NCBI GenBank assembly: GCA_002383325.1
Contig: DFYJ01000058.1
Coordinates: 1-20,320 of the forward strand
Origin: Candidatus Aminicenantes bacterium UBA4085
GTDB taxonomy: Bacteria > Acidobacteriota > Aminicenantia > Aminicenantales > UBA4085
Length of the DNA: 20,320 nucleotides
Direction of reading: 5' to 3'
A program made the translations under genes and the position numbers. The number at the start of each line of letters is the position of its first letter. The first letter of the stretch is position 1. The notes under the pieces were generated by a model. The model was not told the origin of the DNA and searched no databases. It was given only the letters and a program-made list of their open reading frames with translations. Shown here in pieces: positions 5,251 to 14,567 of the stretch.

Positions 5251-5640
5251 TCAGCCGACCAGGGGGGCCAATTGGGAATGGATGAACATCTTATTCAGGA
5301 CAAATCGAAGGTTGACGAAATCGCTCTCCTTCTGACTCAAGAACCGGGGCAGAAGGATGTGCGCAAGCTCGAAGGTCCTCTTCTCCCGATCCGGAATGAT
5401 CATCAGGATATAGATCTCCGTCAGCATCTCGCGCAGCTTTTGCATTTGAACGAGCTCTTTCCGGCTGTCGATGGAAAGGACCGCTATGGAATCCGGCTCG
5501 ACGGGTATCCGCAGCCTCTTTTCAAAATCCGGCAAGCAGGCAAAGCTTTCGATTCGGTCATGGGGGATGACGGCCCGGATCACCGCTTTGAGTCTTTTCG
5601 TATGGGGATTGTCCCGGCTGGAATAGTAGAACATTCGCAT
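5251..5640 (-). CDS. Small atypical receiver-like protein
   Basis: A 129-residue soluble protein. ATG 5640 is preceded by AAGGAGAG at good spacing; the open frame runs further upstream but that part overlaps the DUF3943 gene and is discarded. The alternating hydrophobic strands and helices (SIAVLSID, EIYILMIIPD, AHILLPRFLS) resemble a response-regulator receiver fold, and Asp58 sits where the phospho-acceptor would be. The N-terminal acidic pair of a true receiver is missing (MRMFYYSSRD) and no output domain follows. It may therefore be a pseudo-receiver that acts by protein contact. It is the last gene of the minus-strand run, 97 bp after the DUF3943 gene. The fold call is inference from pattern; the function is unknown. 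Confidence 0.6.
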   Translation of the reverse strand: MRMFYYSSRDNPHTKRLKAVIRAVIPHDRIESFACLPDFEKRLRIPVEPDSIAVLSIDSRKELVQMQKLREMLTEIYILMIIPDREKRTFELAHILLPRFLSQKESDFVNLRFVLNKMFIHSQLAPLVG

Positions 5641-5737: not shown

Positions 5738-7330
5738 TCAGAAATACAGCAGCAAGTACAGCTTCTGTTCGCTGTTGCCTTTGTGCTCGTCCGGAATATC
5801 CCGGTAAAAGCTGTCCTTGTGGTAAAATAAATACTCGAAGCCGAGGCTGACGTTTCCCGTGAGCCTGACGGCGACTCGGGGCTTGAAGACCGCGACATTC
5901 TTGTATCCGGGCGGCCCGACATAGGTATGGAGACTATAGGCGTAATAGATCGCCGTCACCTGCCCCCGATCCAGGAGATTCAGAGTGGCTTCGAGCTTGG
6001 CTTCGACTCCGCCGGAATAATCATAGTTCCGGACGTGGACCCCCTCTTCCAGGAAATCGATATGGGGCGAATCGCTGGCTCCGAGGGGGATGAGCCCGAG
6101 GTGGAAGACGGCCTGAACGTTCGATTTCCCGGGCAGATGCCACTTCCCGACGACCCCCCCGCCGAAGGCCATCGTGCTGATTCGAAAAATCTTGCTGTCC
6201 CAGTAGTTGTAATGCTGAAAGGCCCCCAGCAAGACATCCAGATTCCCGGTCCGGATGGTTTTGCCGAATAGAAGCCCATACCCGATGAAATTATCCAGAT
6301 ATCTTCCACCGATGCTCTTCCCGAAGCTGAGGTCGGTCCGCAGCTTGAAGAAATCGAAGGGCTTGCGGGGGCGAATCTCGAAAGGATTCCCGTAGTCCAG
6401 ATGGATGTCGAAATTGGAGCTCAGGCTGCCTGTGAAGAAGCTCGTCCCCTTGTTGAAGACATGGGCCCCGGCGGTCAGCGTGACGTTGAGCGGTTCCTTC
6501 TGATAGATCTCTTTCGCCGTGATCCTGGTCATCTCGCCCTGTAGAAGGCGGCTGACCGCCCGCCCGGGGCTGAGAATCATGGCCCCGAATTCCCGGAAAA
6601 ACCTTTCCGCCCCCGTCGTCCTGTCATCCAGGAGCAGCGAGCTCAATCGATACAGGATTTCCCCAAACAGGGCGCCGCTGATCGTCGTGTTGATCACATC
6701 GTTGTACGCCGGTTGATTCGTTTCCCCGAGGTATTCCCACATCAAGCTGCCCAGGAGGGCAAGAGGCACCGATTCCAAGTAGCCGTATCCGCCGGCCCGG
6801 GCGGCATTGAAAGAGGCGCCTCCCGAGTAGGGATGAAAGAAGAAATTCATGTTGAACGTGTCGATATCCCAGACGCAGCCTAGTTGGAAATTCTTTTTCC
6901 AGCTCGATACACCGACCCGGGCCCAAGAATATCCGAAGACATACCTGTCCACCGCCCAGGTCAGCGCATTCGTCGCAGTGACCTGGAGAGCGACGGTTCC
7001 CAGCGACCGCTTCGGGTTGAACTCCGGGTCATCACTCCGCAATCGTCTAGGTTCCACGTTGAACGGCTGCTGTTGAAACAAGAGACGCGGCGGCCTAAAG
7101 CCGCCTCGCCTCGCGGTAGGGGCGGGGGGGCGATAGGGAGTCAGGTAAAAATCCGCCGCAGGGGATGCCGCAGGCTGGGCCATGGCCTGCCGCGGCGGAT
7201 CATGGCTCTCGGATGTGAGGAACCCGAAAGCGAATGATCCGCCGCCGGCGAAAATCCCGGAGCACATCCAGGCCAGGATCGCAGCTCTAGGTCTCCATCC
7301 CCTTGAGCTCCCGCTGTTGGACTCCGTCAT
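5738..7330 (-). CDS. DUF3943 outer-membrane protein
   Basis: A 530-residue protein. ATG 7330 is chosen because AGGAAG lies five bases upstream; the longer open frame would overlap the preceding gene. A hydrophobic N-terminal segment (residues about 16-38) may be a long signal sequence, followed by a Pro/Ala linker. Residues about 110-235 carry the DUF3943 signature: DRYVFGYSWARVGVSSW, WDIDTFNMNFFFHPYSG, FNAAR, GSLMWEY and a GEILYRLSSLLLDD-like helix. The C-terminal half has alternating aromatic/polar strands and ends in a terminal Phe (LYLLLYF), typical of an outer-membrane beta-barrel. The function of DUF3943 is not known; lipid or envelope maintenance is a guess. It follows the small barrel gene by 77 bp and probably shares its transcript. 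Confidence 0.85.
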   Translation of the reverse strand: MTESNSGSSRGWRPRAAILAWMCSGIFAGGGSFAFGFLTSESHDPPRQAMAQPAASPAADFYLTPYRPPAPTARRGGFRPPRLLFQQQPFNVEPRRLRSDDPEFNPKRSLGTVALQVTATNALTWAVDRYVFGYSWARVGVSSWKKNFQLGCVWDIDTFNMNFFFHPYSGGASFNAARAGGYGYLESVPLALLGSLMWEYLGETNQPAYNDVINTTISGALFGEILYRLSSLLLDDRTTGAERFFREFGAMILSPGRAVSRLLQGEMTRITAKEIYQKEPLNVTLTAGAHVFNKGTSFFTGSLSSNFDIHLDYGNPFEIRPRKPFDFFKLRTDLSFGKSIGGRYLDNFIGYGLLFGKTIRTGNLDVLLGAFQHYNYWDSKIFRISTMAFGGGVVGKWHLPGKSNVQAVFHLGLIPLGASDSPHIDFLEEGVHVRNYDYSGGVEAKLEATLNLLDRGQVTAIYYAYSLHTYVGPPGYKNVAVFKPRVAVRLTGNVSLGFEYLFYHKDSFYRDIPDEHKGNSEQKLYLLLYF

Positions 7331-7407: not shown

Positions 7408-8016
7408 TCAACGGAAGAAATACAGGGCCAATCCCAGGCTGGCATAGTGACGGGCGTTCCCGTTGAGCGCGAAGCCGAATTCCGCCAGGAAATCGAGGCT
7501 CCTGCTGATCCGGAACTCGAGTCCCGGCACGAGATGCATCATGGCCAGCGTACGATCCGAGCCGTTGACCCAATCATAGGCGAATTTGAAGCCTCCGTAG
7601 AGCTCCAGCCGCTCGACGGGCCTGGTGCTGAGCAGGAGCGCGGTGTCGACGCCCCGGCTGTCATCCCCCCCCTGCCGATTCGTCATGTGGACGCCCAGCG
7701 CGGCCGAGCCGTTGAAGTTCGGCCCGTGGAGGAACCATAATTCGGCGTCGGCGCCCAGGTACTTAAGGCCTTGGAAGATCGCGCCCTTGACCTCGATGTC
7801 GAAGCGCGTCGTCAGCCCGATCCCCACCCGGCCGGCCGCGCCGAACAAGGTGTCTTCGCCGTTCTTGCCGAAGAGCACCGTGGGGAAAAAGCCCAGCTTG
7901 ACGTTGCCCTTGTTGATGGTCTCGGCCGAGTTCATCAGGACGTCCTGAGCGGAGACCGCGGCCGCGGAGGCCAGAAACAGGACGGCGGATAGTCCCACGA
8001 TTATTTTTTTAAGCAT
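7408..8016 (-). CDS. Small outer-membrane beta-barrel protein
   Basis: A 202-residue exported protein. Its classic signal peptide (MLKKIIVGLSAVLFLASAAA, then VSA before QD) is followed by alternating aromatic/hydrophobic strands separated by polar turns (GNVKLGFFPTVLFG, RFDIEVKGAIFQ, LELYGGFKFAYDW). It ends in LALYFFR, close to the usual aromatic C-terminus of barrel proteins. The predicted size suggests an 8- to 10-strand barrel, as in OmpX/OmpW-like proteins, but no specific family motif is visible. AGGAAGG lies a few bases before ATG 8016. It lies 46 bp downstream of the DUF6600 gene and 77 bp upstream of the DUF3943 gene, so all three likely form an envelope operon. The barrel call is solid; the substrate or role is unknown. 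Confidence 0.75.
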   Translation of the reverse strand: MLKKIIVGLSAVLFLASAAAVSAQDVLMNSAETINKGNVKLGFFPTVLFGKNGEDTLFGAAGRVGIGLTTRFDIEVKGAIFQGLKYLGADAELWFLHGPNFNGSAALGVHMTNRQGGDDSRGVDTALLLSTRPVERLELYGGFKFAYDWVNGSDRTLAMMHLVPGLEFRISRSLDFLAEFGFALNGNARHYASLGLALYFFR

Positions 8017-8062: not shown

Positions 8063-9280
8063 TCATTTCTTCCCGCCGCGCTTCGTCGGCGCGGACTTGT
8101 GGACCTGGGTGACCTTCTTGACCTGCTCGGCATCGCTTCGATGCCGGACGTCGATCTGCTGGGCCTCGACGGCATGACTCTTCTTCAATTCGGAGATCTT
8201 GGCCTCATAATCACGCGTGACCCGAGCTTTAGCCGCGGCGTCTCTGACCCGCCGGGCCTCCTGATCGCGCTTCTGCTGAATGCCCTTGATCTCCTGCGCC
8301 TGACTCGCCGTCAGAAGCCTCTTTTCCTGAATTTGCCGCCTCTGGACGGCCGCGGCTTCCGTCGAGATGGTCTGCTGCCCGCGGGGGTCGAAGACTTTGG
8401 CCGGGGCCAGCTCCCGCCGGGCCTGGTTCGTATTCACCAAGTTTTTGGGCTTGGCGGCGCTGTTGGCCCGAATCGTCGGCCGGAAGAGCTGGACCGATCG
8501 GCCGCTGACCCGCGTGCGTCCCGGCTGCGGAACATCCTGCACCGCGTAGACGGGGACGACCCGTCCGGTGATGCGGCGTACCTCATCAAACCCGATTCCT
8601 TCGTTGATGATTCTGTCGTTGCGGGTGTACATGTTGTTGTGGAGGTTCGAGGAGTTGACGATCATCGGATTGCGCTCATAAGGAAGGATATAGGAATTGA
8701 GGTTTGTATCCTGAAAGTGCGATCCTTGGATAAAAACCCAGAAATTCGAGGAGATCCGAAGCGAAGATGAATTGAAGCTCATCCCCAGGCTGAACTCGAA
8801 TCCGGGCGGAAGCGGCGCCCAGCCCATATAGCGATCGTTGGATCTCCAAGTCACCCAAGCCGGGCCCCAAACCGAGCCGGGAACCCAAAACCAGCCGATC
8901 TCATCATCCCAGCCCCAGCGGCCGTAATGGAAGGGAATATCTCCCCATTCCTCGGCCGCGATCCAGGTCCAGCCGTAATCGGTCCAGACCCATTGCCCGT
9001 TGCTGTAGGGACGCCAGCGATAGCCCATATGCCTGGGGATCCAGACATAGCCATAGGGATTGAGATCGATCCAGTCTCCGTAGAAGGACAGACGATCATA
9101 GAAGTAGGAATCATCTTCATATCGTCCGTACTCCTGAGGATTGCGGGCATACTGCTGAACGCCGGAAGCCGCAGGGCTGACCCCTTCATAGGCATAACCG
9201 ACGTCGGGCGAAGCGAGCTGGCCGGCCGAGCTCGCCGCCATGATAAAAACCAAGGCCACGACCCAAAAGGCTCTTTTCAT
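8063..9280 (-). CDS. DUF6600-type Trp/Tyr-rich envelope protein with C-terminal coiled coil
   Basis: A 405-residue exported protein. ATG 9280 has AGGAG seven to eight bases upstream and lies about 14 bases after a predicted sigma54 start site; the frame continues upstream but that part is untranslated leader and promoter. Residues 1 to about 20 (MKRAFWVVALVFIMAASSAG) are a signal peptide. Residues about 65-160 form a Trp/Tyr/Gly-rich block (YGDWIDLNPYGYVW, DYGWTWIAAEEWGDIPFHYG, GWFWVPGSVWGPAW, MGWAPLPPG) matching the DUF6600 region seen in FecR-associated envelope proteins. Residues about 300-390 are Lys/Arg/Gln/Ala/Glu-rich and probably form a coiled coil. First gene of the four-gene minus-strand run. 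The function is unknown; an envelope-stress structural role is inferred from promoter and neighbours. Confidence 0.8.
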   Translation of the reverse strand: MKRAFWVVALVFIMAASSAGQLASPDVGYAYEGVSPAASGVQQYARNPQEYGRYEDDSYFYDRLSFYGDWIDLNPYGYVWIPRHMGYRWRPYSNGQWVWTDYGWTWIAAEEWGDIPFHYGRWGWDDEIGWFWVPGSVWGPAWVTWRSNDRYMGWAPLPPGFEFSLGMSFNSSSLRISSNFWVFIQGSHFQDTNLNSYILPYERNPMIVNSSNLHNNMYTRNDRIINEGIGFDEVRRITGRVVPVYAVQDVPQPGRTRVSGRSVQLFRPTIRANSAAKPKNLVNTNQARRELAPAKVFDPRGQQTISTEAAAVQRRQIQEKRLLTASQAQEIKGIQQKRDQEARRVRDAAAKARVTRDYEAKISELKKSHAVEAQQIDVRHRSDAEQVKKVTQVHKSAPTKRGGKK

Positions 9281-9304
9281 GTTTGTTCTCCTAATCGGCA
9301 TCAT

Positions 9305-9321
9305 TGCAATATGTGTGCCAA
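9305..9321 (-). promoter_or_regulatory. Sigma54 (-24/-12) promoter for the four-gene envelope run
   Basis: Minus strand TTGGCACACATATTGCA. Compared with the sigma54 consensus TGGCACG-N4-TTGCW only one base differs, and the GG and GC doublets have exact spacing. The predicted start is near 9294, giving a leader of about 14 bases that holds the AGGAG site of the DUF6600 gene. An upstream element lies about 176-196 bp away. Confidence 0.72.
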
Positions 9322-9455
9322 GATGTTTTTCCATCCTTCCCCATAGGTCATGAGGAAGTCTCTTCGCGCCGGCGGCCCCAAGAGCCGCGCCGCGGGACGC
9401 CCCGGGGATGCCCCCCGGCTCTTCCCGACTTCGGGACGGATGGGCCGCCGTCTTA

Positions 9456-9489
9456 CTCTTTAGCAAGAATAATGCTGCGTTGCAGGAAT
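9456..9489. promoter_or_regulatory. Upstream activator element A (tandem CAGGAAT-type half-sites)
   Basis: CTCTTTAG is followed by CAAGAAT (9464-9470), 12 bases, then CAGGAAT (9483-9489); the half-sites start 19 bp apart. CAAGAATAATGCTG (9464-9477) matches the palindrome CAGGAATATTCCTG of element B at 11 of 14. The full 34 bp matches element B (14071-14104) at 26 of 34, in the same orientation. It lies between two outward-facing sigma54 promoters, where an enhancer-binding protein would sit. Confidence 0.6.
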
Positions 9490-9584
9490 ATTTTGGGGAG
9501 GGGGGGGGCTTCCCCCTTGGCTCAAGCGGACGCTTTGTTAGAATTATGCGTGATTCTCTGATCGCCGAGAACAAGAAGAAGAAT

Positions 9585-9601
9585 GTGGCATGAAAGCGGC
9601 A
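9585..9601 (+). promoter_or_regulatory. Weaker sigma54-like promoter for the anchored unknown protein
   Basis: GTGGCATGAAAGCGGCA keeps GG and GC at the exact -24/-12 spacing but has three mismatches to TGGCACG-N4-TTGCW. Its TGGCATGAA matches the promoter at 13947-13963. The predicted start is near 9612, about 56 bp before ATG 9668 and about 122-142 bp from element A. Confidence 0.42.
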
Positions 9602-9667
9602 GTATTAGGGTGAATGATTTCGGATCCAGGGCTTATCCGTTAACGGAAGCTGGAGGGATGCCGCGAG

Positions 9668-10258
9668 ATGAGAGAAAGAAAGAAGAAAGAAGATCGAATC
9701 ACTATGACAGCCCAAGCCGGGTCGAGGATCCTAGGGAGAACGATCCGGAAGGCCGCCCTTCTCCTGCTGGTCGTCGTCGGGGTATCGGGCTGGCTTGTCT
9801 ACGCGAAGAGATATGAGCTGGCCTTGAGGTATATGCGGAAAAGCGAAAAGGCCCGGGAGATGATCATCCAGCAAATGATCATCATCGCCAAGCCGATCAT
9901 TGAAAGAGACATCGACATGACGCTGCCCCAAAAGATCATCAGCACCCTGACCGGCCGAAGGAACGAAGCCGAGAGGCGGGCGGGCGCCCTGCGCGACGTC
10001 CGGGCCTTCGGCGAAGGCGGCTTTCAAAGCGGCCGGCTCGAATTCCTGGACGTCCATCAAGCAGGCTCCCGGCACGGTTTCAATCTTCAGGGACTCGATT
10101 TCGCGCTGGGATGGAAGCGGGGAAACGACGAGGAAGTGTTGGCGGCCTTCGCCTTCAATTTCTGGAAAAGAAAAGCGGGTCCGATGCGCATCAATCCGGA
10201 TTGCAGCTTCTTCTCCGAGCTGAAATCGTCCATCGAAAAAAAAGCGCGGGCGAATTGA
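9668..10258 (+). CDS. Membrane-anchored protein of unknown function
   Basis: A 196-residue protein with a basic N-terminus (MRERKKKEDR), one membrane segment at residues about 28-46 (KAALLLLVVVGVSGWLVYAK) and a mostly soluble C-terminal domain. By the positive-inside rule that domain should face the periplasm. GGAGGG lies about 10 bases before ATG 9668; ATG 9704 is an alternative start with a poorer site. The helix after the membrane segment is charged and amphipathic (ALRYMRKSEKAREMIIQQMI). I do not recognise the family. It is divergent from the DUF6600 envelope run and convergent with the sigma54 regulator. The shared upstream element and sigma54-like promoter suggest it is co-regulated with the envelope genes. 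Confidence 0.62.
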   Translation: MRERKKKEDRITMTAQAGSRILGRTIRKAALLLLVVVGVSGWLVYAKRYELALRYMRKSEKAREMIIQQMIIIAKPIIERDIDMTLPQKIISTLTGRRNEAERRAGALRDVRAFGEGGFQSGRLEFLDVHQAGSRHGFNLQGLDFALGWKRGNDEEVLAAFAFNFWKRKAGPMRINPDCSFFSELKSSIEKKARAN

Positions 10259-10285
10259 CGGACCGGGCGCTCAGGGACGACCCGG

Positions 10286-10301
10286 GGCGGGGATTCCCGC
10301 C
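10286..10301. terminator. Hairpin between convergent genes
   Basis: GGCGGG (10286-10291) and CCCGCC (10296-10301) form a 6-bp stem with a GATT loop in the 55-bp gap between two convergent stops. It could serve both directions; no T-tract is present. Confidence 0.38.
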
Positions 10302-10313
10302 GGCGATCCGATG

Positions 10314-11732
10314 TCAGGTCGGATGACGCCAGTCGGCGGAGCGATATTTCCGCAGAAGGGAATAGAGCCGCGATCGGGATAGGCCGGAGATCCGGCAGGC
10401 CTCATCGACTTTTCCGCCGACCGAAGACATCAGGTCCTTGACGTACTTCTGCTCCGCAGCCGATACGGCGGCCTTCCTGATCTCCTGCCATCGCGGCGGC
10501 TGGAGGGAAGAGCGGGCATCTTTTTCCGCGGCCGCCGGGCCGGCCGGTCCCTTGACGAAAGAGCCGCGGGCCACCTGGATGCGGATGTAGACTGGAAGGT
10601 GCTTGGGGAAGAGCATGGGCTCGTCTTTGGCCTGAAGCAGGGCTTTCTCCAAGGCCTGGATCATTTCCCGCACGTTGCCGGGCCAAGGGTACTTGATGAC
10701 GACATCCCAGAACTCGGCGGAAGCCTCTTTGGCTTCAATTCCAAACCGCTCGCACAAGACATTCATGTAGAAGAGCGTCAGTTCCTTGATGTCTCCGGGA
10801 ATCAATCGCAAAGGGGGCAATTCCAGAGTCAGCGTCCGAAGCCGGAAGAACAGGTCCTCCCGGAACAGGCCCAGCTGGACCATGCTCGGCAAATCCCGAT
10901 TCGTCGCCGCTACGAGCCGGAAATCGCTCTCGATTTCCTGGCGTCCTCCGACCGGACGAAAACGATGCTCTTGAATGACCCGCAGGAATCTCTTTTGAAT
11001 CAGGAACGGCATCTCCCCGATTTCATCCAAAAACAGGGTCCCGCCGTCGGCTTGCTTGATCAATCCCTCCTCGCTTCGATCGGCTCCGGTGAAAGCTCCC
11101 CGAGTGTGCCCGAAAAGGACGCTTTCAACGAGCGTCTCCGGAAGCGCCGTGCAATCGACGACCACGAAGCTCTTTTTGGCCCGGGAGCTGTTGTAATGAA
11201 CAGCCTTGGCAAAAAGCTCTTTCCCCGTTCCGGTCTCGCCGGTAATGAGAACATTGACGCCGCTGCCGGCGGCTTGGGCCAGCAGGTCCAGACAGGCCGT
11301 GATCGCCGCGGAATCTCCGATGATGCCTTTTCTCTTCAAGACGACCGGCGGCTTCCCCGATTGTCGTTCAGCGCGATAATCCAGGGCTCGGAGTATGGTA
11401 AGCTTGATGGCCTCCAAGGAAGCCGGCTTTTCTATATAATCCCAGGCGCCGGCCCGAATCGCGAGCTCGGCTTCATCGGGATCGCCCAAGTCGGTAATGA
11501 CGATGATTTCCGGGGAGGATCGCGCCGCTTTGATCTTCGACATCTTCTCCAAGCCGCTTCCATCGGGCAGGCGCACGTCGACAAACACGATATCGAACGG
11601 CTCGGCTTGAGCTTTCCCCAGCCCGCCTTTAAGGGTAGGCGAGGTGAAGGAACGATGCCCCAATTGGGCTACGGCGTTGGCGATCCAATTGCTGATGAGC
11701 TTGTCGTCATCGATGATGAGAATGGAAGCCAT
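10314..11732 (-). CDS. NtrC-family sigma54-dependent response regulator
   Basis: A 472-residue regulator starting at ATG 11732 (GGAG four bases upstream). Residues 1-120 are a receiver domain with acidic pocket Asp8-Asp10, phospho-acceptor Asp52 (FVDVRLPDG), Thr80 and Lys102. Residues about 138-380 are the AAA+ sigma54 activation domain: Walker A GETGTGKE (165-172), the sigma54-contacting GAFTGA loop (212-217), Walker B GTLFLDEI (231-238) and the FREDLFFRL arginine-finger region (290-298). Residues about 425-463 are a Fis-type helix-turn-helix (DEACRISGLSRSRLYSLLRKY). Phosphorylation should drive oligomerisation, binding to upstream elements and ATP-driven opening of sigma54 promoters. No sensor kinase gene is visible, so its partner is elsewhere. 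The two candidate target regions flank this gene, about 0.8 kb and 2.2 kb away. Confidence 0.96.
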   Translation of the reverse strand: MASILIIDDDKLISNWIANAVAQLGHRSFTSPTLKGGLGKAQAEPFDIVFVDVRLPDGSGLEKMSKIKAARSSPEIIVITDLGDPDEAELAIRAGAWDYIEKPASLEAIKLTILRALDYRAERQSGKPPVVLKRKGIIGDSAAITACLDLLAQAAGSGVNVLITGETGTGKELFAKAVHYNSSRAKKSFVVVDCTALPETLVESVLFGHTRGAFTGADRSEEGLIKQADGGTLFLDEIGEMPFLIQKRFLRVIQEHRFRPVGGRQEIESDFRLVAATNRDLPSMVQLGLFREDLFFRLRTLTLELPPLRLIPGDIKELTLFYMNVLCERFGIEAKEASAEFWDVVIKYPWPGNVREMIQALEKALLQAKDEPMLFPKHLPVYIRIQVARGSFVKGPAGPAAAEKDARSSLQPPRWQEIRKAAVSAAEQKYVKDLMSSVGGKVDEACRISGLSRSRLYSLLRKYRSADWRHPT

Positions 11733-11762
11733 GGAACTCCGCGCCTTTCTTTCTTGGTCCGA

Positions 11763-11792
11763 ATTATAAAAAAGCAAAAGATAACTTGTCAA
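11763..11792 (-). promoter_or_regulatory. Consensus sigma70 promoter of the sigma54 regulator gene
   Basis: Minus strand TTGACA (11792-11787), an 18-bp T-rich spacer, then TATAAT (11768-11763); both boxes are perfect. The predicted start is near 11756, 24 bases before ATG 11732. The regulator therefore appears to be made by the housekeeping polymerase and not from a sigma54 promoter. Confidence 0.75.
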
Positions 11793-11905
11793 TACGATTC
11801 GGCCCGGCTCTTTCGAATCGGCTTCCATCGGCTGCGCGCTTATGATCCAATAGGCTTCGATGAAGCTCGGCGGGAAAGTCGGCGACGATCCTGGAAGGAG
11901 ATGAG

Positions 11906-13024
11906 ATGAAACTGCCGTTTCTTGCCAAGGCCGCCGTTTTGCTTGTCAGCGTCTATGCCTTGTTGACGATGTTGTACGTCTCCCGGAACATCGTCGTCCC
12001 GCTTATTTTTGCGATCATCATCGCCATCGTGCTCCATCCCGTCGTTGATTTTTTAGCTCGAAAAAAAATCAACCGCTTGATCGCGATTATCGTCACCATG
12101 CTCCTTGTCTTTATCATCATCGCCGCGTTCGGAGGATTTTTTATCTCGCAGGTCAGTCGGCTCGGCGAATCATGGCCGGTCCTGGTCGAGAGGTTGACCG
12201 GGATCCTCAACCAGACCATCACCTCCGTCTCCGGCTATTTCGATCTGAATCCACAAAAGCTTCAGGCCTGGCTTGCCAAAACTCAGAGCGAGCTCGTCAA
12301 CACCGGCACCGCCGCCATCGGACGAACGCTCGTCACCCTCGGCAACTGGATTGTGATCTTGTTGCTTCTTCCCGTGTACGTCTTTTTGCTGTTGTTATAT
12401 CAACCGATCCTGCTCGACTTCATTCGCAGGCTGTTTCGCGCCGACGAGCAAAGTCAGGTCAATGAAGTCGTCACCCAGACCAAATCCGTCATTCAGCGCT
12501 ATATCGTCGGCTTGGCGATTGAGGCCGTCCTGGTCGCGGCCCTGGAGATCATGGCTCTTCTCCTGCTCGGCATCGATTATGCGATCCTGATCGGGATCCT
12601 GGGCGCCTTGCTCAACGTCATCCCCTACATCGGCGGGCTTGTGGCCGTCGCCTTGCCCATCATGGTCGCCCTGGCCACCAAGCCCTCGCCATGGTTTGCC
12701 GTCTATATTCTCATCGCCTATTACGCCATCCAGTTGATCGATAACAACTATATCGTCCCCAAAATCGTCGCCTCGAAAGTCAAGATCAACGCGCTTTTTT
12801 CCATCATCGTGGTCATCGCGGGAAATGCTCTCTGGGGCGTCCCCGGCATGTTTCTTTCCATACCGCTGCTGGCCATCATCAAGCTCATCTGCGACCATAT
12901 CGAGCCCTTGAAGCCTTGGGGATTCCTGCTGGGCGACACCATGCCCTCCCCCTTGAGCATCCGAGCGATCCTCAAGAAGAAAAGGAAAGCTGAAGCCAAA
13001 GAATCACCCCCGGCGGGCCGATAA
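11906..13024 (+). CDS. AI-2E/PerM-family membrane transporter
   Basis: A 372-residue polytopic inner-membrane protein of the AI-2E transporter (UPF0118, PerM/TqsA) family. Visible features are paired N-terminal helices (LAKAAVLLVSVYALLTMLYV, then IVVPLIFAIIIAIVLHPVVDFL), a soluble segment with an amphipathic helix, then a C-terminal helix set. The C-terminal set carries family-typical LLGIDYAILIGILGALLNVIPYIGG and a DNNYIVPKIV motif. Members export autoinducer-2 or act as cation/proton exchangers; the substrate here cannot be told. The tail is Lys-rich and cytoplasmic. AAGGAG precedes ATG 11906 at good spacing. It is divergent from the sigma54 regulator with 173 bp between starts. No clear promoter of its own was found; TATGAT at 11841 lacks a -35. 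Confidence 0.92.
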   Translation: MKLPFLAKAAVLLVSVYALLTMLYVSRNIVVPLIFAIIIAIVLHPVVDFLARKKINRLIAIIVTMLLVFIIIAAFGGFFISQVSRLGESWPVLVERLTGILNQTITSVSGYFDLNPQKLQAWLAKTQSELVNTGTAAIGRTLVTLGNWIVILLLLPVYVFLLLLYQPILLDFIRRLFRADEQSQVNEVVTQTKSVIQRYIVGLAIEAVLVAALEIMALLLLGIDYAILIGILGALLNVIPYIGGLVAVALPIMVALATKPSPWFAVYILIAYYAIQLIDNNYIVPKIVASKVKINALFSIIVVIAGNALWGVPGMFLSIPLLAIIKLICDHIEPLKPWGFLLGDTMPSPLSIRAILKKKRKAEAKESPPAGR

Positions 13025-13032
13025 GAACCACG

Positions 13033-13072
13033 GGCCCTCTTCTTCTCCCTAGAGCCCCCGAAGAAGAGGGCC
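13033..13072. terminator. Strong bidirectional hairpin
   Basis: A perfect 13-bp inverted repeat, GGCCCTCTTCTTC (13033-13045) and GAAGAAGAGGGCC (13060-13072), with a 14-base loop. It starts eight bases after the transporter stop, between that gene and the convergent DUF3185-like gene, as expected for a shared terminator. It lacks a T-tract. Confidence 0.6.
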
Positions 13073-13118
13073 GCCCGATCCCGCCAATCAGCCGGAAACG
13101 AACCCGGACTGGGGGCCG

Positions 13119-13331
13119 TCAGGGCTTTTTGCGTCCGGCGACAACCAGCGCGACCCCCGCTACAAGCGCGATTCCGCCCGCAATCGGAGGCAGGGGGATG
13201 TTCTTCTTCTGCGTCGCCGTGACTTGAAGAGGCCCGAGATCCACCACTTTTTCCCTGGACGTGTACTGGATTCCCCCGTAGATCAGAGCCAAGAGGCCCA
13301 CAACGATGAGGATAACGCCTAGAACCTTCAT
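13119..13331 (-). CDS. DUF3185-like small membrane protein
   Basis: A 70-residue protein with two membrane segments: MKVLGVILIVVGLLALIYGG at the N-terminus and IAGGIALVAGVALVVAG near the C-terminus. A polar linker (QYTSREKVVDLGPLQVTATQ) joins them and the tail is RKKP. The two-helix layout with a GxxLxVVGxxxLxYGG first helix resembles DUF3185-type proteins, which are common beside other small stress proteins; the exact family is uncertain. GGAAG precedes ATG 13331. It is the last of three small minus-strand genes and probably shares the promoter upstream of the lmo0937-like gene. The role is unknown; membrane stress tolerance is inferred from context. Confidence 0.65.
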   Translation of the reverse strand: MKVLGVILIVVGLLALIYGGIQYTSREKVVDLGPLQVTATQKKNIPLPPIAGGIALVAGVALVVAGRKKP

Positions 13332-13450
13332 GATATCTTCCTTCCTTTCCCCAGCGTCCGTACGCCCTTCCCGTCCCTTCCCTTCTCTCCCTGAAGGGCA
13401 TGCCGCCCCGACTCGCCGATCCTATGGCTGAGCGTGCCTCAGCGGCTCCG

Positions 13451-13636
13451 TTAAGCTCGGCTGCGGACGGCGAGGATCAGCGCGGCGCTTGCGACAAGCA
13501 GCGCCATTCCTCCGACGATGGGAGAGAACAGATCCCGGCGAACCCGAGCCAGAGCACGTCCCGTCACTGCCGGCGCCGTGTTCGTGTGATGCGGCGAGCG
13601 CGGGCGGGCTTTCCCAGGCGGACTTACCTTAGGCAA
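13451..13636 (-). CDS. Small membrane protein, possible truncated relative of the DUF3185-like gene
   Basis: A 61-residue frame from TTG 13636, which has GGGAGGGGA about five bases upstream. The N-terminal half is basic and Pro-rich (PKVSPPGKARPRSPHH). The C-terminal half is one membrane segment (FSPIVGGMALLVASAALILA) ending in VRSRA. This segment resembles the second helix of the neighbouring 70-residue protein (LPPIAGGIALVAGVALVVAG), with the same PIxGGxAL core. It may be a small single-pass protein, or a decayed duplicate that lost its first helix. The unusual TTG start lowers confidence. It is flanked by two other small minus-strand membrane protein genes. Confidence 0.4.
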   Translation of the reverse strand: MPKVSPPGKARPRSPHHTNTAPAVTGRALARVRRDLFSPIVGGMALLVASAALILAVRSRA

Positions 13637-13710
13637 AGCGTCCCCTCCCGCTGATCATCGTCTCGCCCCACCAACCGGGCCTCCGCCTTGTCCCTGCGGC
13701 ATCATTCACT

Positions 13711-13857
13711 TTAGAGGACTCTCCGGCCCTTCAACAGCCGGATGACCAGGACCACCAAGGCGATGACGAGCAGGACGTGGATGATGCTGCCGGCGTGAAA
13801 GGCAAAAAGCCCCAAGGCCCACCCGACCAACAGAATGATCAAGATCGCTTCAAGCAT
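13711..13857 (-). CDS. lmo0937/DUF5670-family small membrane protein
   Basis: A 48-residue protein, easily missed by gene finders. The sequence MLEAILIILLVGWALGLFAF, then HAGSIIHVLLVIALVVLVIR and LLKGRRVL, has the two-helix form of lmo0937-family proteins: an aromatic-Gly first helix, a central GxxIHxLLVIA motif and a basic RLLxGRR tail. AAAGGAG lies six bases before ATG 13857. The function is not known. These proteins often occur beside CsbD-type and other stress genes, as here (CsbD divergent, DUF3185-like downstream). A sigma54-like promoter lies about 90 bp upstream. Confidence 0.75.
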   Translation of the reverse strand: MLEAILIILLVGWALGLFAFHAGSIIHVLLVIALVVLVIRLLKGRRVL

Positions 13858-13946
13858 CTCGGACTCCTTTCCCCTCTAGCTCCCGACGTCCCGAGCCTGG
13901 CCGATCCGAAAGACGGATTGAACTTGTGAGGGTCGACAGATATCAA

Positions 13947-13963
13947 TGCACGATTCATGCCAA
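13947..13963 (-). promoter_or_regulatory. Sigma54-like promoter for the small membrane protein genes
   Basis: Minus strand TTGGCATGAATCGTGCA keeps GG and GC at exact -24/-12 spacing, with two mismatches to TGGCACG-N4-TTGCW. The predicted start is near 13936, about 79 bases before ATG 13857. Element B lies about 150-169 bp upstream. Confidence 0.5.
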
Positions 13964-14070
13964 GCCTTCTCAGCTTCGGTCGACCGGACGGAAATCCAAC
14001 CCGGCTGAGCCAGAGGCGCGAACGGCCGGCTTTCGGAGCGCTGCGCTCAACGCTTTTTTCGCGATTCGCT

Positions 14071-14104
14071 CTCTTAAACAGGAATATTCCTGCTCCGCAG
14101 GAAT
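14071..14104. promoter_or_regulatory. Upstream activator element B (palindrome plus third half-site)
   Basis: CTCTTAAA precedes the perfect 14-bp palindrome CAGGAATATTCCTG (14079-14092), and a further CAGGAAT half-site follows at 14098-14104, its start 19 bp from the first. It matches element A at 26 of 34 positions. It lies between two outward-facing sigma54 promoters, about 150-169 bp from one predicted start and 143-162 bp from the other. No gene is visible in the surrounding 13858-14286 stretch. Confidence 0.65.
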
Positions 14105-14219
14105 CAAGCCTCCGTGATCCCTTCCTCCTGATCCATCGGCCGGCGGCAAAGCCAAGGTTAGTCCGAATTTAAGGGGCCCCTCTCCCGGGGGGGAAACGCC
14201 TGAAACCGAGATGCGGCAT

Positions 14220-14236
14220 CTGGCACGAAGGTTGCA
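14220..14236 (+). promoter_or_regulatory. Perfect sigma54 promoter for the CsbD-family gene
   Basis: CTGGCACGAAGGTTGCA matches TGGCACG-N4-TTGCW at every defined base. The predicted start is near 14247, about 40 bp before GTG 14287. Element B lies about 143-162 bp upstream. Confidence 0.8.
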
Positions 14237-14286
14237 ATAACGCTATAGGCAAGACATAGGTCCGCGTTTCCTGAAGGAGGAACACC

Positions 14287-14466
14287 GTGAAATCCAGCCA
14301 GAGAGACAAAACGGAAGGTCGTCTGCACGAAGCGAAGGGGAAGATCAAAGAGGTCGTAGGAAATGCCGTCGGGAATCGAGATCTGGAAGCCGACGGAAAA
14401 AACGAACAGCTGGCCGGCAAGGTTCAGAAGAAGATCGGAGAGATTAAAAAGGTCGTGGGAAAGTAG
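14287..14466 (+). CDS. CsbD-family stress protein
   Basis: A 59-residue hydrophilic protein starting at GTG 14287, with AAGGAGG six to seven bases upstream. The sequence has the CsbD layout: an N-terminal GRLHEAKGKIKEVVGNAVG repeat-like helix, a short acidic linker (NRDLEADGKNEQ), then a second related helix (LAGKVQKKIGEIKKVVGK). CsbD proteins are small, charged, cytosolic and induced by general stress in many bacteria; their molecular role is unknown. Here the gene has a consensus sigma54 promoter and an upstream element shared with the envelope-gene region. It runs toward the tRNA-Arg gene, 27 bp past its stop. The short length and GTG start make it easy to miss. Confidence 0.9.
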   Translation: MKSSQRDKTEGRLHEAKGKIKEVVGNAVGNRDLEADGKNEQLAGKVQKKIGEIKKVVGK

Positions 14467-14493
14467 ACTCCCCCTCCGGGGTGGATGGGAAAG

Positions 14494-14567
14494 CGCGCCC
14501 GGAGAGATTCGAACTCCCGACCCTTTGGTTCGAAGCCAAATGCTCTATCCAGCTGAGCTACGGGCGC
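14494..14567 (-). tRNA. tRNA-Arg, anticodon UCG
   Basis: On the minus strand a 74-nt cloverleaf: acceptor GCGCCCG/CGGGCGC (7 perfect pairs), D-arm GCTC...GAGC, anticodon stem TTTGG/CCAAA with loop CTTCGAA (anticodon TCG, reads CGA), variable GGGTC, T-arm GGGAG-TTCGAAT-CTCTC with one wobble, discriminator G. CCA is not encoded. Its promoter lies just upstream. Confidence 0.95.

Follow-up and report, generated by a model that had tools for sequence, protein, structure and literature searches.

In the ZraPSR system of enterobacteria, a sigma54-dependent response regulator acts on divergent -24/-12 promoters with common activator sites, and the output is an envelope stress response. The phage shock activator PspF, which is without a receiver domain, also uses sigma54 to activate membrane-protection genes, and in Geobacter BccR is reportedly the activator of cbcBA. 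The sigma54-dependent response regulators DVU3305, DVU1419, DVU3381 and DVU2934 of Desulfovibrio vulgaris mostly have palindromic sites, and some are labelled with envelope or general stress in the available text of the reports (PMC4641369; PMC3333781). The DNA studied here, positions 1 to 20,320 of contig DFYJ01000058.1 of Candidatus Aminicenantes bacterium UBA4085 (assembly GCA_002383325.1; this whole stretch of 20,320 bases is called the window), contains the gene of a sigma54-dependent response regulator between two intergenic regions (9281-9667 and 13858-14286), each with a predicted tandem operator between two outward-facing -24/-12 promoters. From the sequence, it is highly likely that the locus is a sigma54 regulon in which the regulator binds between the divergent promoters and drives both. 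By analogy, the system would act in the manner of ZraSR or other two-component activators that use sigma54 and divergent promoters, and it is set apart from the known systems because of its double-palindrome operator and a stand-alone pseudo-receiver partner (RECL).

The likeness to ZraPSR lies in the type of regulator, the divergent promoters with common activator sites and a putative envelope stress output. On the other hand, the regulator scored 277.5 bits with the NCBIfam model of ZraR (cut-off 760), the operator is a double CAGGAAnnTTCCTG palindrome, and a pseudo-receiver is present; none of the ten scanned window proteins was named ZraP or ZraS in the family scans. Sigma54 activation of membrane-protection genes would be shared with PspF, but the regulator here has a receiver and scored 233.5 bits against a cut-off of 443.55. 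NtrC (319.6 bits, cut-off 558.6), AtoC (326.3, cut-off 714) and the PEP-CTERM regulator (283.8, cut-off 502.6) also stayed below their cut-offs; these and other known equivalogs were rejected as identities for the regulator, with no equivalog cut-off reached among the best 25 of 108 matched NCBIfam families. The likeness to BccR is by neighbourhood alone: members of the regulator family in Geotalea (L055) and Geomonas (L071) lie upstream of cytochrome genes, with the same double palindrome preceding the sigma54 site, and they are possibly BccR orthologues. The setting is different, since the neighbouring targets of the Geobacter-type members look respiratory. The genes behind the regulator at L055:10628-12356 encode a multihaem cytochrome c and a cytochrome b561, and those of L071 are alike by eye. 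The D. vulgaris regulators, as described in the available text, resemble the present one in class, in their mostly palindromic sites and in the stress labels of some; the main text of PMC4641369 contains neither CAGGAA nor TTCCTG.

For the promoters, every GG-N10-GC in the window was given our own weighted score against the sigma54 consensus TGGCACGN4TTGCW (maximum 22.5), and windows with the same dinucleotide make-up (G+C content of 61.5%) were simulated. The initial annotation had placed four outward -24/-12 sites in the two intergenic regions, and all four were recovered, three of them as the best three sites of the window (Table 1). The fourth (9586-9601) is at chance level by score, tied at rank 4-5 with 3.7 sites of such score expected per simulated window, yet it is conserved in two relatives, where TGGCATGAAAACCGCA (L118) and TGGCACGAAAACCGCA (L120) stand at the same place between the DUF6600 and anchored-protein (ANCH) genes. 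Both of these regions keep the two boxes of the first region of the window, including the weak one. The promoter of the lmo0937 gene lies 105 bp 5' of the start codon, matching most relatives. Autoregulation of the regulator from 11736-11905 is not indicated, as none of the 40 best sigma54 sites and none of the 10 best operator matches fell there.

A tandem-site element common to both regions had also been proposed. The 34-base element is identical at 26 of 34 positions between 9456-9489 and 14071-14104, beyond simulation (at most 23/34 in 20 simulated pairs), and the observed local-alignment score was reached in none of 500 simulations; it is better described as a tandem double palindrome, predicted as CAGGAAnnTTCCTG-n5-CAGGAAnnTTCCTG. 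Motif work was based on the best 80 of 442 regulator loci in the genome collection, four from Aminicenantes and the rest mostly labelled Deltaproteobacteria, Desulfuromonadales and the like (here "Desulfobacterota"). A strong -24/-12 site lies 3' of the regulator in many of the latter, and the regions upstream of sites scoring at least 20, located 30-300 bases after the regulator, were used for training (25 regions, 24 of them non-Aminicenantes, from 76 such loci). When the most frequent 7-mers of all 25 regions (one from Aminicenantia) were used as seeds, the motif GCAGGAA..TTTCC emerged. A palindromic refit on the 24 non-Aminicenantes regions, with the window left out and seeds chosen by us, gave CAGGAAnnTTCCTG, which reached at least 15 bits in 17 of the 24. 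When data-driven palindromic seeds were applied to the 24 regions, they converged on an inter-site palindrome, with a log-likelihood of 198.8 against at most 51.5 in 12 simulated sets. Since this is the gap between two CAGGAAnnTTCCTG palindromes, the operator is taken to consist of two palindromes with a period of 19 bp. The inter-site half reached at least 19 bits in 17/24 Desulfobacterota regions; our first impression of it as a terminator was dropped once it was recognised as part of the operator.

With the tandem matrix trained only on Desulfobacterota loci, the two best matches in the window are the operators of the two intergenic regions, followed by a shifted register of operator 1 (12.0 bits) and then by a match of 8.8 bits. 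For the best match per window, 200 simulated windows gave a mean of 8.6, 13.0 at the 95% point and at most 19.8 bits. Operator 2 was also first with a 20-bp single-palindrome matrix (22.0 bits versus a maximum of 17.0 in 50 simulated windows); operator 1 does not stand out against simulation with that matrix (11.1 bits).

Both the operator and the -24/-12 sites are conserved in relatives. L003, L119, L124 and L125 have the tandem operator flanked by divergent -24/-12 sites. Each of the 16 matches of at least 17.7 bits in 23 Aminicenantia loci, corresponding to about 14 distinct elements, is accompanied by an outward -24/-12 site at a distance of 60-260 bp; at lower scores, matches with and without such sites are mixed. 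For a genome-wide test at the DNA level, a degenerate tandem-operator pattern was searched with up to three mismatches in 142 Aminicenantia genomes; the pattern was derived from Aminicenantia loci already inspected, so that those matches are not new. It gave 30 matches in 24/142 genomes, versus one match of the reversed control. An outward -24/-12 site lies within 40-230 bases of 20 of the 30 matches (19/24 at up to two mismatches and 1/6 at three); 6.8% of random points (273/4000) had one. The regulator, defined at E 1e-100 with 11 candidates scored per genome, is present in 28 of the 142 genomes, and the pattern occurs in 12/28 genomes with it versus 12/114 without, or 12/28 versus 6/114 at up to two mismatches; these and all other co-occurrence statistics are inflated by kinship among the genomes. 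Two conditions that the initial annotation had named as refuting turned out favourable to it: the element and the -24/-12 sites are conserved in related genomes, and rpoN was found in 7/8 regulator-bearing genomes tested, the exception being a 2.1-Mb assembly. The idea of a local regulon applies in part: targets are found around the regulator, but in some relatives operator copies are on contigs other than that of the regulator. In Geobacterales the pattern search gave 27 matches in 15/38 genomes versus none of the control, some of them being one place read on both strands.

The target families are also common to relatives. Named from their translations, the genes behind matched operators include the lmo0937 family (10 loci), DUF6600 (5), ANCH (1), RECL (1), DUF3185-like (1) and others. 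When some of these were scanned with Pfam, the PAP2 (L158) and lectin-like (L160) proteins passed, a DUF3185-like protein (L150) was just under the cut-offs, and the L141 protein fell in no family; a BON-domain protein is behind the operator in L124, and the M48 protease family occurs near the regulator in six Aminicenantia loci. In L124, L126 and L130, BARREL homologues near the regulator have an operator and a -24/-12 site of their own. ANCH homologues were found in L112, L118 and L120, and also behind the operator in L135, and DUF3185-like homologues occur near the regulator in six other loci, all Aminicenantia. The lmo0937 family exceeds its cut-off in 19/142 genomes, 16/28 with the regulator and 3/114 without, and two of these three (G138 and G146) carry the operator. 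In the reverse test, which started from 23 lmo0937 genes found by protein profile (L207, a match under the family cut-off, was excluded), a -24/-12 site was present in the 200 bases upstream of 20 genes and mostly lay about 105 bases before the start codon. The operator (at least 13 bits) was found for 16 genes, and 15 genes had both elements; L201 was counted as a miss because it has just 58 bases of upstream sequence. Operator and -24/-12 site occur together in 0.85% of random 420-base stretches. DUF6600 was discarded as a regulon marker, being present in 141/142 genomes. Upstream of the OmpA/glycine-zipper gene of L113 and the Transgly_assoc gene of L119 there are good -24/-12 sites and no convincing operator (8.0 and -1.7 bits).

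The initial annotation had described the gene between the two regions as an NtrC-type activator with a Fis HTH. The receiver (Pfam Response_reg, 70.2 bits, cut-off 30.2; phospho-acceptor Asp at residue 52), the sigma54 AAA+ domain (Sigma54_activat, 218.6 bits, cut-off 20.2) and the GAFTGA loop are all present; the HTH (HTH_8) scored 17.9 bits, below the Pfam cut-off of 22, though the C-terminal end, with the stretch SGLSRSRLY, is strongly conserved among orthologues. Within the best 80 loci, the regulator is 77, 74 and 66% identical to those of L001-L003 (Ca. Aminicenantes) and 50-57% to the other 77. The phospho-acceptor Asp is replaced by Glu or Asn in 5/21 Aminicenantia loci and in 0/69 others; Glu was seen in the Aminicenantia regulators of L095-L099, L109 and L110. 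The post-regulator sigma54 site of Desulfuromonadales relatives is followed by another sigma54 activator, a short one (L045:6453-7403, with similar ORFs in L019, L024 and L026); that of L045 has the Pfam AAA+ and lid domains and no receiver.

The activated regulator would bind the double palindrome, centred about 105-160 bp away from each outward promoter, and would open both promoters through its AAA+ domain. Operator 1 would drive the run of DUF6600, barrel, DUF3943 and pseudo-receiver genes together with the divergent ANCH gene, and operator 2 the lmo0937 and DUF3185-like genes together with the divergent CsbD gene. RECL could bind the receiver domain or the kinase of the regulator and thereby tune it, which is our guess. 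The operator-promoter architecture, its tie to the regulator family and the target families common to relatives were shown computationally; from these we infer binding and activation by the regulator and co-transcription of the whole runs. Judging by the gene families, the output would be an envelope or general stress response; envelope or osmotic stress responses often involve families of the BON, PAP2 and M48 protease type.

Table 1. Genes and predicted control elements of the locus in the window
Feature	Position	Strand	Details
Stand-alone pseudo-receiver (RECL)	5251..5640	-	receiver fold
DUF3943 protein	5738..7330	-	Pfam PF13084, 109.1 bits; start estimated by eye
Small barrel-like secreted protein (BARREL; description from the initial annotation)	7408..8016	-	no Pfam family
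DUF6600 protein	8063..9280	-	Pfam PF20245, 115.9 bits
-24/-12 promoter, DUF6600 run	9305..9320	-	TGGCACACATATTGCA; 21.5/22.5, rank 2; conserved in L118 and L120
Tandem operator 1 (degenerate)	9462..9498		second-best match of the window, 19.8 bits, Desulfobacterota-trained tandem matrix
Weak -24/-12 promoter, ANCH	9586..9601	+	TGGCATGAAAGCGGCA; 19.0/22.5
ANCH, protein with N-terminal hydrophobic stretch	9668..10258	+	no Pfam family
Response regulator, sigma54-dependent (receiver, GAFTGA-bearing AAA+ domain, putative C-terminal HTH)	10314..11735	-	between the two control regions
DUF3185-like small membrane protein	13119..13331	-	DUF202 25.5 bits (cut-off 23.4); DUF3185 13.9 bits, below 25.3
lmo0937-family (DUF5670) membrane protein	13711..13857	-	NF033488, 53.3 bits (cut-off 30)
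-24/-12 promoter, lmo0937 gene	13947..13962	-	TGGCATGAATCGTGCA; 20.5/22.5, rank 3
Tandem operator 2	14077..14113		best match of the window, 27.7 bits, tandem matrix trained only on Desulfobacterota loci
-24/-12 promoter, CsbD gene	14221..14236	+	TGGCACGAAGGTTGCA; 22.5/22.5, rank 1
CsbD-like protein	14287..14466	+	Pfam PF05532, 58 bits (cut-off 40)

The regulator probably has a dedicated partner in RECL, a link that is new relative to the initial annotation. RECL has the five-fold beta-alpha receiver fold, and at residues 56 and 57, where strand 3 ends and the phospho-acceptor would be, none of 46 aligned proteins has an Asp; nearby, Asp occurs at residue 58 in 2/46 (the window protein included) and at residue 59 in 5/46. 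Tentatively, RECL may be a phosphorylation-independent controller acting in trans, a second receiver fold that pairs with the receiver of the regulator and, in the Glu-for-Asp sub-group, takes over the switching, by which a two-component activator would become a protein-partner switch. It is rather unlikely that RECL is an ordinary co-inherited neighbour with no part in controlling the regulator. Co-occurrence could stem from common descent, and RECL is missing from G095, which has two regulators, and from G070, G075 and G085; against this, 24/28 Aminicenantia genomes with the regulator have RECL and just 1/114 without it, RECL adjoins each of the two regulators in both G127 and G128, and it is near the regulator in 33/90 loci (16 Aminicenantia and 17 others). 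Another small receiver-type protein was seen near the regulator in 14 loci, none of them Aminicenantia (e.g., L045:7964-8344; Pfam Response_reg, 39.1 bits), and may be a counterpart of RECL.

The operator and the sigma54 promoters could be real and served by another activator, with the regulator just a neighbour, which appears improbable. The operator occurs at up to two mismatches in six genomes that have other activators and no orthologue at E 1e-100; however, a fuller candidate search found these to be generic, with at most 41% identity, the motif was discovered beside orthologues in a distant bacterial group, and both groups share a conserved HTH end. The six genomes may seem to be without orthologues because their assemblies are incomplete. 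Chance resemblance of elements and promoters in a window of such G+C content is extremely improbable. It could account for the fourth promoter and for operator 1, whose score equals the maximum of 200 simulated windows, but both elements are the top two matches of a matrix trained without the window, and the genome-wide tests with DNA and with protein agree; for operator 2 and the family as a whole, chance and composition were rejected by the simulated sequences and the window-free matrix. It is possible, if doubtful, that the trigger of a real regulon is energy or redox limitation and not envelope stress, as may be the case in the Geobacter-type relatives. Because these adjoin cytochrome genes, the signal may be one of energy or redox state; the multihaem cytochrome c and cytochrome b561 genes of L055 presumably resemble CbcBA. 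According to a review (PMC12307469, available text), the absence of easily reduced acceptors induces CbcBA; that passage deals with CbcBA and not with its regulator. The linked kinases in L018, L045 and L055 also have GAF and PAS domains. However, no cytochrome gene was noticed among the inspected Aminicenantia targets, which are small membrane proteins, DUF6600, BON, PAP2 and unknowns.

For a sigma54 regulon driven by the regulator from between divergent promoters, several observations are unfavourable. The exact string GAFTGA is found in 47/90 orthologues, and just 2/21 Aminicenantia loci have a kinase homologue close to the regulator (within 4.5 kb in 54/90 loci overall). Operator 1 is degenerate, and the training set was confined to the loci with a strong promoter after the regulator. 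No pattern match was found in 16 of the 28 regulator-bearing genomes, and one of the six genomes with operator and without orthologue, G119, has no adjoining sigma54 site. The genomes are related, and therefore the Fisher p values are too small. Desulfobacterota-type loci with RECL have a weak palindrome or none between regulator and RECL (best 11.5 bits), and therefore the operator there may differ or lie elsewhere. As for control of the whole gene set, which the initial annotation had assigned to the regulator, the family is tied to the operator and sigma54 promoters in two bacterial groups and the same target families recur in Aminicenantia, while CsbD and DUF3943 are assigned by their position in this window only.

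Two further features were seen beside the targets. A 61-aa ORF at 13451-13636 (-), between the lmo0937 and DUF3185-like genes, is by eye like the ORF behind the L111 sigma54 site; as part of one transcript with these genes, it may encode a small, conserved membrane protein. At 14493-14567 (-), 26 bases after CsbD, there is a tRNA-Arg gene (tcg). No earlier description of this regulon or of a RECL-like partner appeared in the titles and abstract openings of the literature matches listed, and no literature was found on DUF6600 or GSU0598. None of GSU0593, GSU0594 and GSU0596-GSU0599 is mentioned in PMC2725144, and neither Aminicenantes nor CsbD in the available text of PMC12316311.

Based on these results, a testable operator, a list of targets and a candidate control protein are provided for a two-component sigma54 system common to two distant bacterial groups, one of which is represented here by metagenome assemblies only. 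The operator prediction extends to Geobacter-type relatives beside cytochrome genes, where it is open to testing in culture. If true, a stand-alone pseudo-receiver travelling with one activator would be an added layer of control, one not described for this class among the literature matches listed, in their titles and abstract openings.

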